Origin: Clostridiaceae bacterium
GTDB taxonomy: Bacteria; Bacillota; Clostridia; DSM-8532
Assembly (NCBI GenBank): GCA_012519655.1
Contig: JAAYPS010000043.1
Span: forward strand, 1 to 64,000
Direction of reading: 5' to 3'
Length of the DNA stretch: 64,000 bases
Shown one piece after another: positions 9,536-61,075 of this stretch. Below the pieces are notes generated by a model. It was not told where the DNA came from, searched no databases, and saw only the letters and a program-made list of their open reading frames with translations. The number at the start of each line of letters is the position of its first letter. Position 1 is the first letter of the stretch. A program made the translations under genes and the position numbers.

Positions 9536-9803
9536 TGTCGTGCTAGACGGGGAGGTAGCGGTGCCCTGTACCTGCAACCCGCTATAGCAGGGTTGAACTC
9601 CTGCCCAAGGCATGTAATTGTGAAGCCAGGGCTATAATTTAAAGGCGATGAAGATTGGGTCTTGCGCAATTCAAGGCTGTGAACCCCGTCAGGTCTGGAA
9701 GGAAGCAGCGGTAAGCGGTTATCTGGATGTGCCGCGAGGGTGCCTGATCAGAGTCTTTGGTTATGGTACCGTTTGTAATTGCATGTCGACGGCAGGTGCA
9801 CGA
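9536..9803 (+). ncRNA. ffs: Signal recognition particle RNA, large bacterial type
   Basis: This is the RNA scaffold of the signal recognition particle, which with Ffh delivers nascent membrane and secreted proteins to FtsY and the translocon. The diagnostic helix 8 is present: GTCAGGTCTGGAAGGAAGCA (symmetric and asymmetric loops with the GGAA tetraloop) near 9690-9709. The 5' Alu-like part GGGGAGGTAGCGGTGCCCTG and the GGCAGGTGCACGA 3' end resemble the Bacillus large (about 270-nt) form. Boundaries are by analogy and uncertain by several bases. The track's 75-aa ORF at 9648-9875 lies on this RNA and is not a gene. I see no T-tract terminator directly after it. Confidence 0.93.
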
Positions 9804-32157: not shown

Positions 32158-32386
32158 AGAAAGCAGTCAATGTTCCTGAAATGTTCGAATAACCTATTAT
32201 TTTGAACCTACAGTAGACATACGGGAGCTCGGTTGTTTTTATTAGGAATACAGGCCCCAAGATAATTCCGACATCGGCAAAAGTCGCATGCAACGGCGGG
32301 GGACGTGTGAATAATAAAGCAGGGCACCCACCTAGCAGGTTAGCTAGGTGTCAAAATATAGGGAAACGGCATTTTGGGGGCATGAA
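32158..32386 (+). ncRNA. ssrS: Probable 6S RNA
   Basis: A non-coding transcript with its own promoter and a terminator, in a gap of over 500 bases. Its 3' half carries GGGCACCCACCTAG, a CTAGGTG-containing hairpin partner, TCAAAATATAGGGAAACGGC and TTTTGGGGG, which I recognise from Firmicute 6S RNAs. 6S RNA mimics an open promoter and sequesters sigma-A RNA polymerase in stationary phase. The start is set from the promoter; the true mature ends are not visible, and the transcript may extend to the terminator at about 32446. Assignment rests on remembered motif likeness, not on a covariance model. Confidence 0.68.
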
Positions 32387-55149: not shown

Positions 55150-55226
55150 TGGTACGCCCGACACGATTCGAACGTGCGACACCAAGTTTAGGAAACTTGT
55201 GCTCTATCCTACTGAGCTACGGGCGC
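55150..55226 (-). tRNA. tRNA-Arg(CCU)
   Basis: On the minus strand GCGCCCGTAGCTCAG begins the molecule and CGGGCGTACCA ends it. The acceptor stem pairs over seven positions with one G-U pair. The anticodon arm is CAAGT-TTCCTAA-ACTTG, giving anticodon CCT. TTCGAAT is the T-loop. The encoded 3' CCA is present. 77 bases in all. Confidence 0.96.
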
Positions 55227-55467: not shown

Positions 55468-55734
55468 ATGGCAGATTGTTTAGCTGTATATGATTCCGGG
55501 AACTTTGCAATAAAAATCTCCAGACATTTTGAAAGGATGGGGTATGTTTTTGAAGTCATTTCGTTACCATGTAAAATTTCAACAACAGGTTGCGGTTACT
55601 GTTTGAAGTTCCCTGAAGAATATAAAGATATGGTTTTATGTGAAAGTAGAAAACTAAATATTCGGATTCGGGAATTATACAGAGTGATTAAGGGCAACTT
55701 AAAGAACACCTATGAGAAAATACCTCTGGTTTAG
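55468..55734 (+). CDS. DUF3343 protein (putative sulfur/selenium carrier-like)
   Basis: The 88-aa protein matches the DUF3343 family by length and by the central motif STTGCGYCLKFPEEY, with Cys residues that the family keeps. These proteins are thought to carry sulfur or selenium and often lie by cysteine desulfurase or selenium genes; the function is not proven. ATG 55468 follows AAGGGTGAC. It lies 229 bases before cysQ and the sulfate-activation genes on the same strand, which fits a sulfur role by context only. Confidence 0.82.
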   Translation: MADCLAVYDSGNFAIKISRHFERMGYVFEVISLPCKISTTGCGYCLKFPEEYKDMVLCESRKLNIRIRELYRVIKGNLKNTYEKIPLV

Positions 55735-55962: not shown

Positions 55963-56751
55963 ATGACAAATAATGAATTACCAAAGGTGCTTGAATTTGC
56001 AAAGGAACTAGCCAAACAAGCAGGGCGTATAATTTTAGATATTTATCAAAAGGATTTTTCGGTAGATTACAAAGATGATTCATCTCCTGTCACAGAAGCT
56101 GACAAAAAAGCCAACGATTACATTGTAAATAAGTTGAAGAAAAAATATCCAGAATGTGCTATACTAGCTGAAGAATCGAAAGATGATTCTGTAAGACTTA
56201 GTAATGATTGGTGTTTCATTGTAGATCCTTTAGATGGTACAAAGGAATTTATTAAGAAAAATGATGAGTTCACAGTAAATATTGCCCTATCATATAGAGG
56301 TAAGCCTGTTATGGGGGTTATTGGTATTCCTGTTACTGGAGAATTGTATTTTGCGGTAAAGGGGCTCGGGGCTTTCTATGAGAAGGATGGACATGTAGAA
56401 AAAATACATGTATCTACGCGGACAGAGGATATACGCCTTATGAAGAGCCGATCTCATCAATCGGATAAACTTATACAGCTTATAGAAAAAAACGAAATTA
56501 AGAATGTAATTGTAGCAGGAAGTGCCATAAAGGGATGTCTTATTGCAAAAGGCGAAGCTGAGGTTTACTACCGTTTCGGTTACACAATGGAATGGGATAC
56601 CGCTGCAATGCAATGTATAGTGGAGGAAGCTGGAGGCATATTCCGCCAGATGGATGACAGTGAAATGACATATAATCGAGTAAACAACCTGAACGAAAAG
56701 GGCTTTTATGTTATTAATCACCCAGAAAATAAATTAACTTTGAACTTTTAA
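55963..56751 (+). CDS. cysQ: 3'(2'),5'-bisphosphate nucleotidase CysQ
   Basis: CysQ removes the 3' phosphate from PAP (adenosine 3',5'-bisphosphate) made when PAPS is used. The 262-aa inositol-monophosphatase-fold protein has the metal motifs LAEESKDD (about residues 66-73), VDPLDGTKEFIKKNDEFTVNIA (about 87-108, quoted in part) and MEWDTAAMQ (about 211-219). No usable start exists upstream in frame, because a stop lies at 55933. So ATG 55963 is fixed although it lacks a close ribosome binding site; the leader is unusual. Together with cysD and cysN it forms a sulfate-activation group. Confidence 0.9.
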   Translation: MTNNELPKVLEFAKELAKQAGRIILDIYQKDFSVDYKDDSSPVTEADKKANDYIVNKLKKKYPECAILAEESKDDSVRLSNDWCFIVDPLDGTKEFIKKNDEFTVNIALSYRGKPVMGVIGIPVTGELYFAVKGLGAFYEKDGHVEKIHVSTRTEDIRLMKSRSHQSDKLIQLIEKNEIKNVIVAGSAIKGCLIAKGEAEVYYRFGYTMEWDTAAMQCIVEEAGGIFRQMDDSEMTYNRVNNLNEKGFYVINHPENKLTLNF

Positions 56752-56821: not shown

Positions 56822-57703
56822 ATGAATCGTCTCGACAAGCTTGAAAATAAGTCAGTACATATATTAAGAGAAGCTTATGCCAACTTTCAAAATATGTGCA
56901 TGCTTTGGTCAATAGGAAAGGATAGTACTGTTTTGCTCTGGTTGGCACGAAAAGCATTCTTTGGTCATGTACCGTTCCCATTGGTGCATATTGATACCCA
57001 TTATAAAATACCTGAAATGATTGAATATAGAGATAAGCTTGCACTTGAATGGGGCTTGGACATGGTATATGGAGAAAATAAGGATGCTTTGGATAACAAA
57101 CTCACATTTCCTGATGGAAATGCAACACATATTGAATGCTGTAAGCTATTAAAAACTGAGGCTTTACGGAATACATTGAACGGGAAATGGCCGAGATACC
57201 GGCTAAATCATACAAAAAAAGTCTACGAAATAGATAGTAACACTGAACCATATACCGGCGTAATCGTTGGAGTAAGAGCAGATGAAGAAGGAAGTCGATC
57301 GAAGGAAAGATATTTCTCGCCAAGAGATAGAAACAATGATTGGGATGTTGGTGATCAACCACCTGAATTTTGGGGACAGTTTAAAACAGATTTTGCTCCG
57401 GGGACACATCTTCGTATTCACCCACTGTTAGATTGGACAGAGTTAGATGTATGGGAGTATATCAAACGTGAAAACATTCCTACAGTATCATTGTATTATG
57501 ATCATGGTCAGGGAAAGAGATATCGTTCTCTTGGCTGCTACCCTTGCACTTTTCCAGTTGATTCAAATGCAAAAAATGTTGATGATATTATTGAGGAGCT
57601 TAAAACAGGAAAATTTGCAAATATCGCTGAACGCTCTGGAAGAGCTCAGGACAAGGAAGATGGTGGAGGTCTTGAGGAATTAAGAAAAGGTGGATACATG
57701 TAG
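56822..57703 (+). CDS. cysD: Sulfate adenylyltransferase subunit 2
   Basis: CysD is the PP-loop ATP sulfurylase subunit that joins sulfate and ATP into APS, driven by the GTPase CysN. The 293-aa protein has the PP-loop [18 protein letters not shown] (quoted in part; normally SGGKDS), [26 protein letters not shown] and the CysD-typical C-terminus [17 protein letters not shown] lies before ATG 56822. The cysN gene follows after 100 bases. No sulfate permease is seen in the window. Confidence 0.94.
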
Positions 57704-57803: not shown

Positions 57804-59615
57804 ATGAGAAATGAGTTCTCTTTTAATAAGCTAGATTTAATGCGAAAACAAGATATGAATATAGTAATTGTGGGGCATGTGGATCACGGAAAGAGCACTG
57901 TAATAGGACGGCTTTTAGCCGATACACATTCATTACCAGATGGTAAGTTGGAGCAGGTAAAAGAAACCTGCAGACGTAATTCTAAACCATTCGAATATGC
58001 TTTTCTTTTGGATGCATTAAAAGACGAACAGTCTCAAGGTATCACTATTGATACAGCCCGTTGTTTTTTTAAGACAGAGCTAAGAAACTACATAATCATA
58101 GATGCTCCTGGCCATATAGAGTTTTTAAAGAATATGATTACAGGTGCCTCCCGAGCAGAAGCGGCACTTTTAGTCATAGATGCAAACGAAGGTGTTCAGG
58201 AAAACTCCCGACGCCACGGATATATGTTGTCCATGCTTGGTATAAAACAAGTATGTGTGCTTGTAAATAAAATGGACTTAACGGATTACAATGAAAAATC
58301 ATTTAGAAGAATTGAAAGACAATATAGACGATTTTTAAGAAGAATTGATGTTGAACCTAAATGCTTCATTCCAGTTAGTGCAATGCAAGGCGATAATATA
58401 GCAAACCATTCAAAAAATATGCCATGGTATGAGGGCATGAATGTTCTTGAGGTTTTGGACACTTTTGAGAATGAAGAATTACCTGAGGACAAGCCATTCC
58501 GTATGCCTGTTCAGGATGTATATAAGTTTACTAAAGGTGGAGATAACAGAAGAATTATTGCAGGAACAATTGAAACAGGCCAAATATCTGTTGGAGATGA
58601 AGTGGTATTCTATCCATCGGGCAAAATAACAACTATTAAATCAATAGAGGCTTTTAACCGTAATCCTCAAGAAAGTATAGGAGCAGGTTGGGCGTGTGGT
58701 TTCACCATGAGCAAACAGATTTATGTCAGGCGTGGGGAAATAATGTGTCTCACCAAAGAACTAAAACCAAAGACTACAGGTAGAATGCTTGTGAATTTAT
58801 TTTGGCTTGGTAAGAATCCTTTGGTTAAGGACAAAACCTATTATTTAAAACTAGGAACTGCTAAGGTAGCTATGCAACTTGAAGAGGTTCAAAGTGTAAT
58901 GGATGCATCTGAGCTTGTTGGAAAGAAAAAGGAACAAGTTGATCGCAATGAGGTGGCAGAGTGCATATTAACCTTGGATAAGCATATTGCATTTGACTTA
59001 ATGAGTGACATTGCAAAAACAAGCCGCTTTGTTATAGTAGACGATTATGAGATCTCCGGCGGTGGAATAGTCATGCAAGATATGGAGGATCAAACCAGTT
59101 GGGTACGTGATAAAGTTCTAATGCGTAACTACAAATGGATTGGTAGTGAAATCAGCTCAGAGATGAGAGCTTCAAAATATAAACATAGAGCTAAACTAAT
59201 ATTTATTACAGGATCGAAGGATAGTCCTAGAAAAGATTTAGGAAAAGCACTGGAAAAAGAGTTGTTTAGTGAAGGAAAGCTTGTATATTATCTAGGCATA
59301 GGAAGCGTTGTATATGGGGTTGATGCAGATTTAGTCGACAGCAAATTACTTGTACACAGCAGAAAAGAACATATTCGGAGATTGACCGAAGTTGCACATA
59401 TAATGCTTGATGCGGGGATGATATTTATCATGTCAGCAAGAGAACTTAATGCTGATGATTTTGATGTAATAAGGACAGGGATACATGATGAGAAGATTTC
59501 TGTTATCTGGGTGGGAGAAGAAAGAACCACAGATATTCCAGTAACATTGCATATTGAAGATCCTTATGATATGGAAGATTGTGTTAAGCTTATCAGAGAA
59601 CAGTTAGATGTATAA
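57804..59615 (+). CDS. cysN: Sulfate adenylyltransferase subunit 1 (CysN) fused to a degenerate APS-kinase domain
   Basis: CysN is the GTPase subunit. The G motifs are intact: GHVDHGKST (about residues 24-32), DAPGHIEF and NKMD, followed by EF-Tu-like beta-barrel domains to about 435. The last about 150 residues align with the APS kinase (CysC) core, for example [20 protein letters not shown]. But the P-loop reads [13 protein letters not shown] where TGLSGAGKST is expected, and the APS-binding LDGDNVR region is replaced by [10 protein letters not shown]. So the kinase half probably cannot bind ATP normally. Length is 603 aa. GAGGAAGG precedes the ATG. Confidence 0.9.
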
Positions 59616-59766
59616 AGCTTCAACATATTGTAGATTAGCCACTAAAAACAAGATAGCGATCTACAAGACTAAAATAATCTAATAAAATGGTTGGAACCTT
59701 AGAGTAGTGTTCTGAAAACTGTAAGAAGAATATTTAATGGATATGTACTTTGTAGGAGGGGATATT

Positions 59767-60171
59767 TTGAGACTGTCACGGAAAAGCGAATATGCATTAT
59801 TGGCTCTGGTGGATCTTTCGAGACAGTATGGTAAAGAGCCTGCTAAAATTATGGATGTGTCAATAAGAAATGATATTCCAAAAAAATATTTGGAGCAAAT
59901 ATTTCTTCAGCTCAAAGGTGCAGGCTATGTAAGAAGTTTTCGTGGTGCAAATGGTGGATACTCGTTAGCTAAACCACCAGAAGAAATAACCCTTGCACAG
60001 ATTATTCGTCTAATTGATGGACCATTGGCATCGGTTGGTTCAGCAAGTCTTTATTATTTTGAACACACACCAATTGAAAAGAATAAAAAACTACTTCAGG
60101 TATTTAAGGAAATTCGGGATGAGGTATCAGAAAAGCTAGAAAGTATGAGCCTTTCTGATTTTGTAGACTGA
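59767..60171 (+). CDS. Rrf2-family transcriptional regulator (CymR-like)
   Basis: A winged-helix regulator of about 134 aa with LSRKSEYALLALVDLSRQYG at the N-terminus and the recognition wing RGANGGYSLAKPPEEITL (about residues 59-76). It lacks the three cysteines that bind an iron-sulfur cluster in IscR/NsrR, like CymR, the sulfur-control repressor that partners with CysK. Between cysN and a sulfonate/sulfite-type exporter this fits a sulfur regulator. The track ATG 59737 is upstream of the site GTAGGAGGGG; TTG 59767 is the better start. Operator candidates lie in the next gap. Confidence 0.85.
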   Translation: MRLSRKSEYALLALVDLSRQYGKEPAKIMDVSIRNDIPKKYLEQIFLQLKGAGYVRSFRGANGGYSLAKPPEEITLAQIIRLIDGPLASVGSASLYYFEHTPIEKNKKLLQVFKEIRDEVSEKLESMSLSDFVD

Positions 60172-60328: not shown

Positions 60329-61075
60329 ATGGATAAAACATTTTTTCTATTCTTGCTTGCTGGCTTCTTAGCGCAGACGATAGATGGTTGTATTGGCATG
60401 GCATACGGAGTAAGCTCTACTAGTCTCTTATTAAGCTTCGGCGTGCCACCTGCGGCAGCTAGTGCATCTGTACATACGGCAGAGATTTTTACTACATTTG
60501 TTTCTGGGATTTCTCATTATAAACTTAAAAATATTGATAAAAAACTATTCTCATCTTTGGTTATCCCAGGAGTAATAGGCGGGATTATAGGAGCATATGT
60601 ATTGACAAATATAGACACAACGATAATCGAGCCAATTATTAATATTTATCTTATCGTTATGGGATTGAGAATAATATACAAAGCCTTTGGTAAACCTGTA
60701 CAGAAAGCAATACAAAATATCAAAATACAGATACTTGCAGTGGTAGGAGGATTTCTTGATGCAATAGGCGGTGGTGGTTGGGGTCCTGTTGTTACAACAA
60801 CCCTTGTTGCAAATGGGACTACTCCAAGGTATGTTATTGGATCGGTGAACGCTTCTGAATTCTTTGTAACTCTCGCACAAGCAATAACTTTCGTGACCCT
60901 TATTGGATTAGGTGATTATTGGAAGATCATTATAGCATTGGCGATAGGCGGTGTGATTGCTGCTCCTTTTGCAGCATTACTTGTAAAGAAAATATCTGCT
61001 AAAGTCATGATGATTATTGTAGGTATTGTGGTAACAGCATTGAACATTCGCAACATAATTCTTTTGTTTATATAG
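60329..61075 (+). CDS. TauE/SafE-family sulfite/anion permease
   Basis: A 248-aa polytopic protein with about seven or eight membrane segments and two family repeats. The loops carry DGCIGMAYG near the N-terminus and GGGGWGPVVTT (about residues 146-156), the typical TauE signature. Members export sulfite, sulfoacetate or related anions, or import sulfur-containing anions. Here it follows the sulfur cluster, which makes a sulfur anion likely; the direction is unknown. GAGGGAG precedes the ATG. A terminator follows. Confidence 0.88.
   Translation: MDKTFFLFLLAGFLAQTIDGCIGMAYGVSSTSLLLSFGVPPAAASASVHTAEIFTTFVSGISHYKLKNIDKKLFSSLVIPGVIGGIIGAYVLTNIDTTIIEPIINIYLIVMGLRIIYKAFGKPVQKAIQNIKIQILAVVGGFLDAIGGGGWGPVVTTTLVANGTTPRYVIGSVNASEFFVTLAQAITFVTLIGLGDYWKIIIALAIGGVIAAPFAALLVKKISAKVMMIIVGIVVTALNIRNIILLFI

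Follow-up and report, generated by a model that had tools for sequence, protein, structure and literature searches.

The cysN gene in the 64,000-nucleotide stretch of DNA analyzed here (hereafter the window) encodes the GTPase subunit of a CysDN ATP sulfurylase, to which is attached a C-terminal domain related to APS kinase and lacking its catalytic residues. Sequence comparison indicates that this dead domain is ancient and shared by bacteria from at least 16 phyla; it probably persists as a structural or regulatory component, without catalysis, of the GTP-driven ATP sulfurylase. The genes and CysN segments concerned are as follows.

55963-56751, + strand: cysQ, 3'(2'),5'-bisphosphate nucleotidase for PAP removal (TIGR01331, 249 bits, cut-off 229)
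56822-57703, + strand: cysD, ATP sulfurylase catalytic subunit, 293 aa, directly upstream of cysN
57804-59615, + strand: cysN, 603 aa, GTPase subunit of CysDN ATP sulfurylase plus C-terminal pseudo-APS-kinase domain (TIGR02034)
57846-59075, + strand: EF1A-like GTPase body, CysN aa 15-424; motifs [14 protein letters not shown] and NKMD intact (nearly or fully invariant in 59 relatives)
59109-59612, + strand: pseudo-APS-kinase domain, aa 436-603 (PF01583, E 2.3e-9, scan from aa 442; AlphaFold2; Foldseek)
59211-59237, + strand: rebuilt P-loop GSKDSPRKD, aa 470-478, with G-x5-[KR][KR] replacing GLSGSGKST (83/83 relatives; P-loop Ser/Thr in none)
59295-59306, + strand: GIGS, aa 498-501, at the DGDN motif position (both Asp and the next Arg in 0% of 83)
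59367-59417, + strand: helix alpha2, [17 protein letters not shown], aa 522-538 (E522, R525, R526 and E529 kept in 98-100%)
59544-59549, + strand: junction aa 581/582, site of the missing APS-kinase lid of about 30 residues (deletion in 83/83 relatives)
59737-60171, + strand: Rrf2-family regulator (CymR/IscR-like), adjoining cysN in 9-10 loci
60329-61075, + strand: TauE/SafE-family permease (PF01925, E 5e-39)

The window also carries a small Se_S_carrier protein (PF11823) near cysQ at 55468-55734, a Large SRP RNA (9538-9803), a 6S RNA (32170-32384) and a tRNA gene (55153-55226). The window CysD scores below the cut-offs of TIGR02039 and PRK12563 and above that of PRK05253, and is a member of a divergent CysD subfamily travelling with the dead-domain CysN.

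The assignment of CysN is supported by its TIGR02034 score (349.2 bits against a cut-off of 336.1), the EF1A-like GTPase and the adjoining cysD, while the protein falls outside the bifunctional CysNC family, with 434 bits against the PRK05506 cut-off of 715 and with the catalytic residues lost. The alignment of its C-terminus with CysC, noted in the original prediction, was borne out by a PF01583 match above the Pfam cut-off for the domain alone and by a match of the APS kinase structure 3uie to residues 1-117 of the domain query (E 3e-9), the tail staying below the TIGR00455 (CysC) cut-off (47 vs 138.7). The AlphaFold2 model of the domain has a pLDDT of 84.6 and a pTM of 0.81, the loop that replaces the APS-binding loop being at pLDDT <50; in a Foldseek search against PDB the top 50 matches were all APS kinases, with target-normalised TM of at most 0.75, and together with PF01583 this identifies the tail as an APS kinase homologue. 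In the full-length model (pLDDT 82.1) the body matches EF1A and P. syringae CysN (1zun). The APS-kinase fold is thus predicted to be kept in the CysN tail.

In M. tuberculosis CysC structures, ATP, Mg and APS are held by the P-loop, the Asp of DGD, the Arg of DGDNxR, the Phe of the APS loop and the lid (PMC4373884). In order to evaluate these elements, the pseudo-domains of 83 relatives, the window's own included, were aligned with a reference set of 42 intact APS kinases, made up of E. coli CysC, four fused copies and the stand-alone CysC of the same loci, and positions conserved to at least 90% in the intact set were scored in E. coli CysC numbering. Window CysN has [10 protein letters not shown] at aa 469-478, where APS kinases have TGLSGSGKST, so that the altered Walker A had been quoted correctly; GSKDSPRK stands against GLSGSGKS/T, and Ser or Thr after the Lys position is found in 0/83 relatives. 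P-loop Ser42 is retained in 0% (K/R in 83/83), as are Asp63, Asp65, Arg68 and Phe77, and the P-loop Lys position is kept in 61%. The claim that the domain has lost its P-loop holds for the Walker A motif itself, but an invariant G-x5-[KR][KR] stands in its place in 83/83; the DGDN region, described as gone, is present and substituted rather than deleted, window LGIGSVV replacing LDGDNxR with LGIGS at aa 497-501. Two losses had escaped the earlier description: a deletion has removed the lid, some 30 residues reading RDPKGLYKKA...FTGxxxPYExP in intact kinases, from the window protein and in 83/83 relatives, and the SPxR strand has neither SP nor R, with Ser109, Pro110 and Arg115 retained in 0-1%. 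Judging from these residues, catalysis by the CysN tail is very unlikely.

A scan of genome contigs gave at least 570 confirmed relatives, of which 80 from 16 named phyla were kept; every full-length copy read among them carries the dead domain. Since the loss, which was to be compared among relatives, is common to all 83 domains, recent loss, sequencing error and chance are ruled out as its origin. In the Bacillota sample, a CysN match was found in 48 of 399 genomes, and the C-termini are dead domains, further-decayed versions, an unrelated domain or intact CysC. In the tree of GTPase bodies, proteins with the dead domain cluster in a single well-supported group (48 rows, SH-aLRT 98) that includes two intact copies, the further-decayed copy L155 falling outside. 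One intact copy (L144, genome G429) has a CysC exactly where the pseudo-domain otherwise sits and is nested in the Halanaerobiales group of the pseudo-domain clade; its fused CysC shares 81% identity with the stand-alone one of a close relative, which suggests a secondary fusion in the same seat; in genome G429 other CysN pieces lie at contig ends, and the matched stretch covers the pseudo-domain. Another group of Bacillota CysN (L156-L157, L159-L164) has a different C-terminal domain, with FDE[YF]YY followed by a YPxxxD stretch and no Pfam match. The C-terminus of CysN looks like a slot for different domains.

The original prediction had offered that the cell stops at APS or that it uses a separate kinase. 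The former is contradicted and the latter supported: the same genome encodes an intact stand-alone CysC (C25:23030-23479, 222 bits) with GLSGSGKST, DGDNIR and a full lid, on a contig other than that of cysN, together with a PAPS-type sulfotransferase, and intact CysC was found in 49 of 50 other genomes with dead-domain CysN, the one without a detected copy being a Spirochaetales MAG (L095, genome G077). In the window's family, CysN, intact CysC and Sulfotransfer_3 are found together in 11 of 32 genomes, one of them a single-contig assembly (G026), and the other 21 have none of the three; the 11 genomes span 4 of 7 genera and hence do not represent 11 independent events. AprA-like proteins were found in only 2 of the 11 (G020, G021). 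Neither CysH nor AprA was found in the genome of the window, which is 97.6% complete, so that a reductase may have been missed. A weak AprA match at C128 looks by sequence like L-aspartate oxidase (NadB-like), and the second PAPS_reduct match, a 479-aa protein at C46, appears from its sequence and neighbours to be tRNA(Ile)-lysidine synthetase. With neither reductase found, PAPS of this organism most likely serves sulfation, which accounts for CysQ; the neighbourhood of cysQ, considered odd beforehand, fits a PAPS/sulfotransferase pathway. In Clostridium, Halanaerobium and Ilyobacter, dead-domain CysN lies beside AprA/ferredoxin genes, indicating that the domain goes with more than one fate of APS. 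In addition, an arylsulfotransferase gene (PF05935, ASST) lies near cysC and dead-domain cysN, usually two genes downstream of cysN, in 10 loci of Lachnospiraceae and other gut Clostridia (L062, L071, L074, L076, L080, L081, L084, L091, L092, L100).

As to the role of the dead domain, the original prediction of a scaffold or allosteric site would fit the conservation pattern. Asn7, Arg20, Glu49, Glu84, Arg87, Arg88, Glu91 and Gly100 (E. coli CysC numbering) are kept in 96-100% of the pseudo set. In M. tuberculosis CysC the dimer is formed by helices alpha2 and alpha3, alpha2 making up much of the interface; as the N-terminal arm and alpha2 are kept in the CysN tail, self-association is favoured. 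We propose that APS would be made by CysD and the intact CysN GTPase, and PAPS by the separate intact CysC rather than by the CysN tail, with a sulfotransferase probably consuming PAPS and CysQ presumably clearing PAP. The pseudo-domain most likely self-associates through the arm and the alpha2 surface retained from APS kinase, and in this state may hold or regulate the CysDN assembly, while the altered dibasic P-loop perhaps holds an anion. Against self-association, the conservation of alpha2 could reflect folding only; against a structural or regulatory role in general, E. coli CysN works without such a domain and other CysN carry an unrelated one.

A second reading, to be taken as tentative, is that the domain is an allosteric sensor, in which the dibasic G-x5-[KR][KR] loop and the conserved GIGN-x-L-Y-G-V-D-A-D loop would bind an anion, be it a nucleotide, a sulfonucleotide, PPi or sulfate, and tune CysDN activity, as PAPS does in the fungal enzyme. 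In support of this, 14 positions are newly conserved (pseudo-domains at least 88%, intact kinases at most 14%), including Lys477, Gly498, Tyr504, Ala508, Trp569, Gly571 and Asp577, and all 14 are present in the window; together with the G-x5-[KR][KR] in 83/83, this indicates that the former P-loop and active site were rebuilt and not merely lost, and given the invariant dibasic loop the domain may sense a ligand. There is also the fungal precedent of a kinase-inactive APS-kinase-like domain that confers regulation by PAPS, according to PMC3734648 and PMC13213808. On the other hand, the APS-holding residues (Asp and Arg of DGDNxR, Phe of the APS loop) survive in 0% of the relatives and no lid is left, so that PAPS is unlikely to bind as it does in the fungal enzyme; the aa 501-515 loop is modelled with low confidence; and among the far more decayed relatives (L145-L153, L155) several lack even the dibasic pair, which argues against a single ligand function for the whole clade.

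Docking of the separate CysC, with the pseudo-domain as platform or heterodimer partner for hand-over of APS, is less probable still and we regard it as unlikely. It would agree with the presence of cysC within 6 kb of dead-domain cysN, often directly downstream, in about half of the loci, with the kept alpha2 surface, and with the intact CysC that occupies the pseudo-domain seat in L144. In the partial Mantel test of 41 loci, however, divergence of the pseudo-domain went along with that of the GTPase body on the same protein (partial r 0.51) but not with that of the separate CysC (partial r -0.19, controlling for CysN body and CysD), giving no support to a CysN-CysC heterodimer, and in the window's own genome cysC lies on another contig.

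That the domain is a functionless, decaying relic of a CysNC fusion is highly improbable. All catalytic features are lost, decay has gone further in some Bacillota, and in the lineage of the window dN against the nearest relative is 0.185 for the domain and 0.078 for the GTPase body; but the domain is kept in all 83 relatives compared, which come from a set with 16 phyla, has gained conserved positions, and is under purifying selection, with a median dN/dS of 0.16 compared with 0.12 for the GTPase body (74 pairs). Least credible of all is an APS kinase still active with a shifted nucleotide site, for which the fold and the frequent P-loop Lys may be quoted, given that the lid, DGD, the Arg of DGDNxR and the P-loop Ser are gone and intact CysC is nearly always present.

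Returning to the preferred reading of a non-catalytic structural or regulatory part, if it is true, a large group of CysN, most of them listed under generic names, would be ATP sulfurylases that carry a dead kinase of their own and not PAPS synthases, and pathway calls based on PF01583 matches to CysN would change; the Ilyobacter plasmid copy, for instance, is annotated merely as 'GTP-binding protein'. In openly licensed papers we found no account of a CysN pseudokinase, of an APS-kinase-like domain on CysN or of an extension at its C-terminus. With regard to known systems, E. coli CysN likewise serves this heteromeric ATP sulfurylase as its GTPase subunit, beside a separate CysC, but is 475 aa long and has no C-terminal domain. 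CysNC/NodQ (M. tuberculosis CysN, rhizobial NodQ) shares the order of an EF1A-like GTPase followed by an APS-kinase fold, and the CysD partner, whereas the kinase domain of the window lacks P-loop, DGDN and lid and PAPS comes from a separate CysC. Stand-alone CysC (PF01583) has the homologous fold and the residues of the N-terminal arm and alpha2, while the CysN tail lacks the active site and the lid.

The fungal ATP sulfurylase (Penicillium chrysogenum, Met3-type) likewise combines an APS-kinase-like C-terminal domain without kinase activity with a separate APS kinase. The fungal enzyme is, however, a Sat-type (PF01747) sulfurylase unrelated to CysDN; the window domain is attached to CysN, for which Pfam gives GTPase-type domains and APS_kinase, and no PF01747. 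The fungal allosteric domain keeps the sulfonucleotide pocket; in the CysN set its Asp, Arg, Phe and Arg are retained in 0%, 0%, 0% and 53%, and the window tail lacks both the pocket residues and the lid. By this comparison the CysN pseudo-domain appears analogous to the PAPS-sensing domain found in the fungal enzyme but does not belong to it. It is conceivable, if rather doubtful, that bacteria evolved independently of fungi, on the unrelated GTP-driven sulfurylase, a widespread and as yet unnamed dead APS-kinase domain in which the rebuilt dibasic P-loop senses an anionic ligand and which controls sulfate activation. Under the preferred reading, the pseudo-domain of CysN would be a bacterial counterpart of the fungal regulatory domain, and the reason why sulfurylases retain dead APS kinases could then be tested in two unrelated enzymes.
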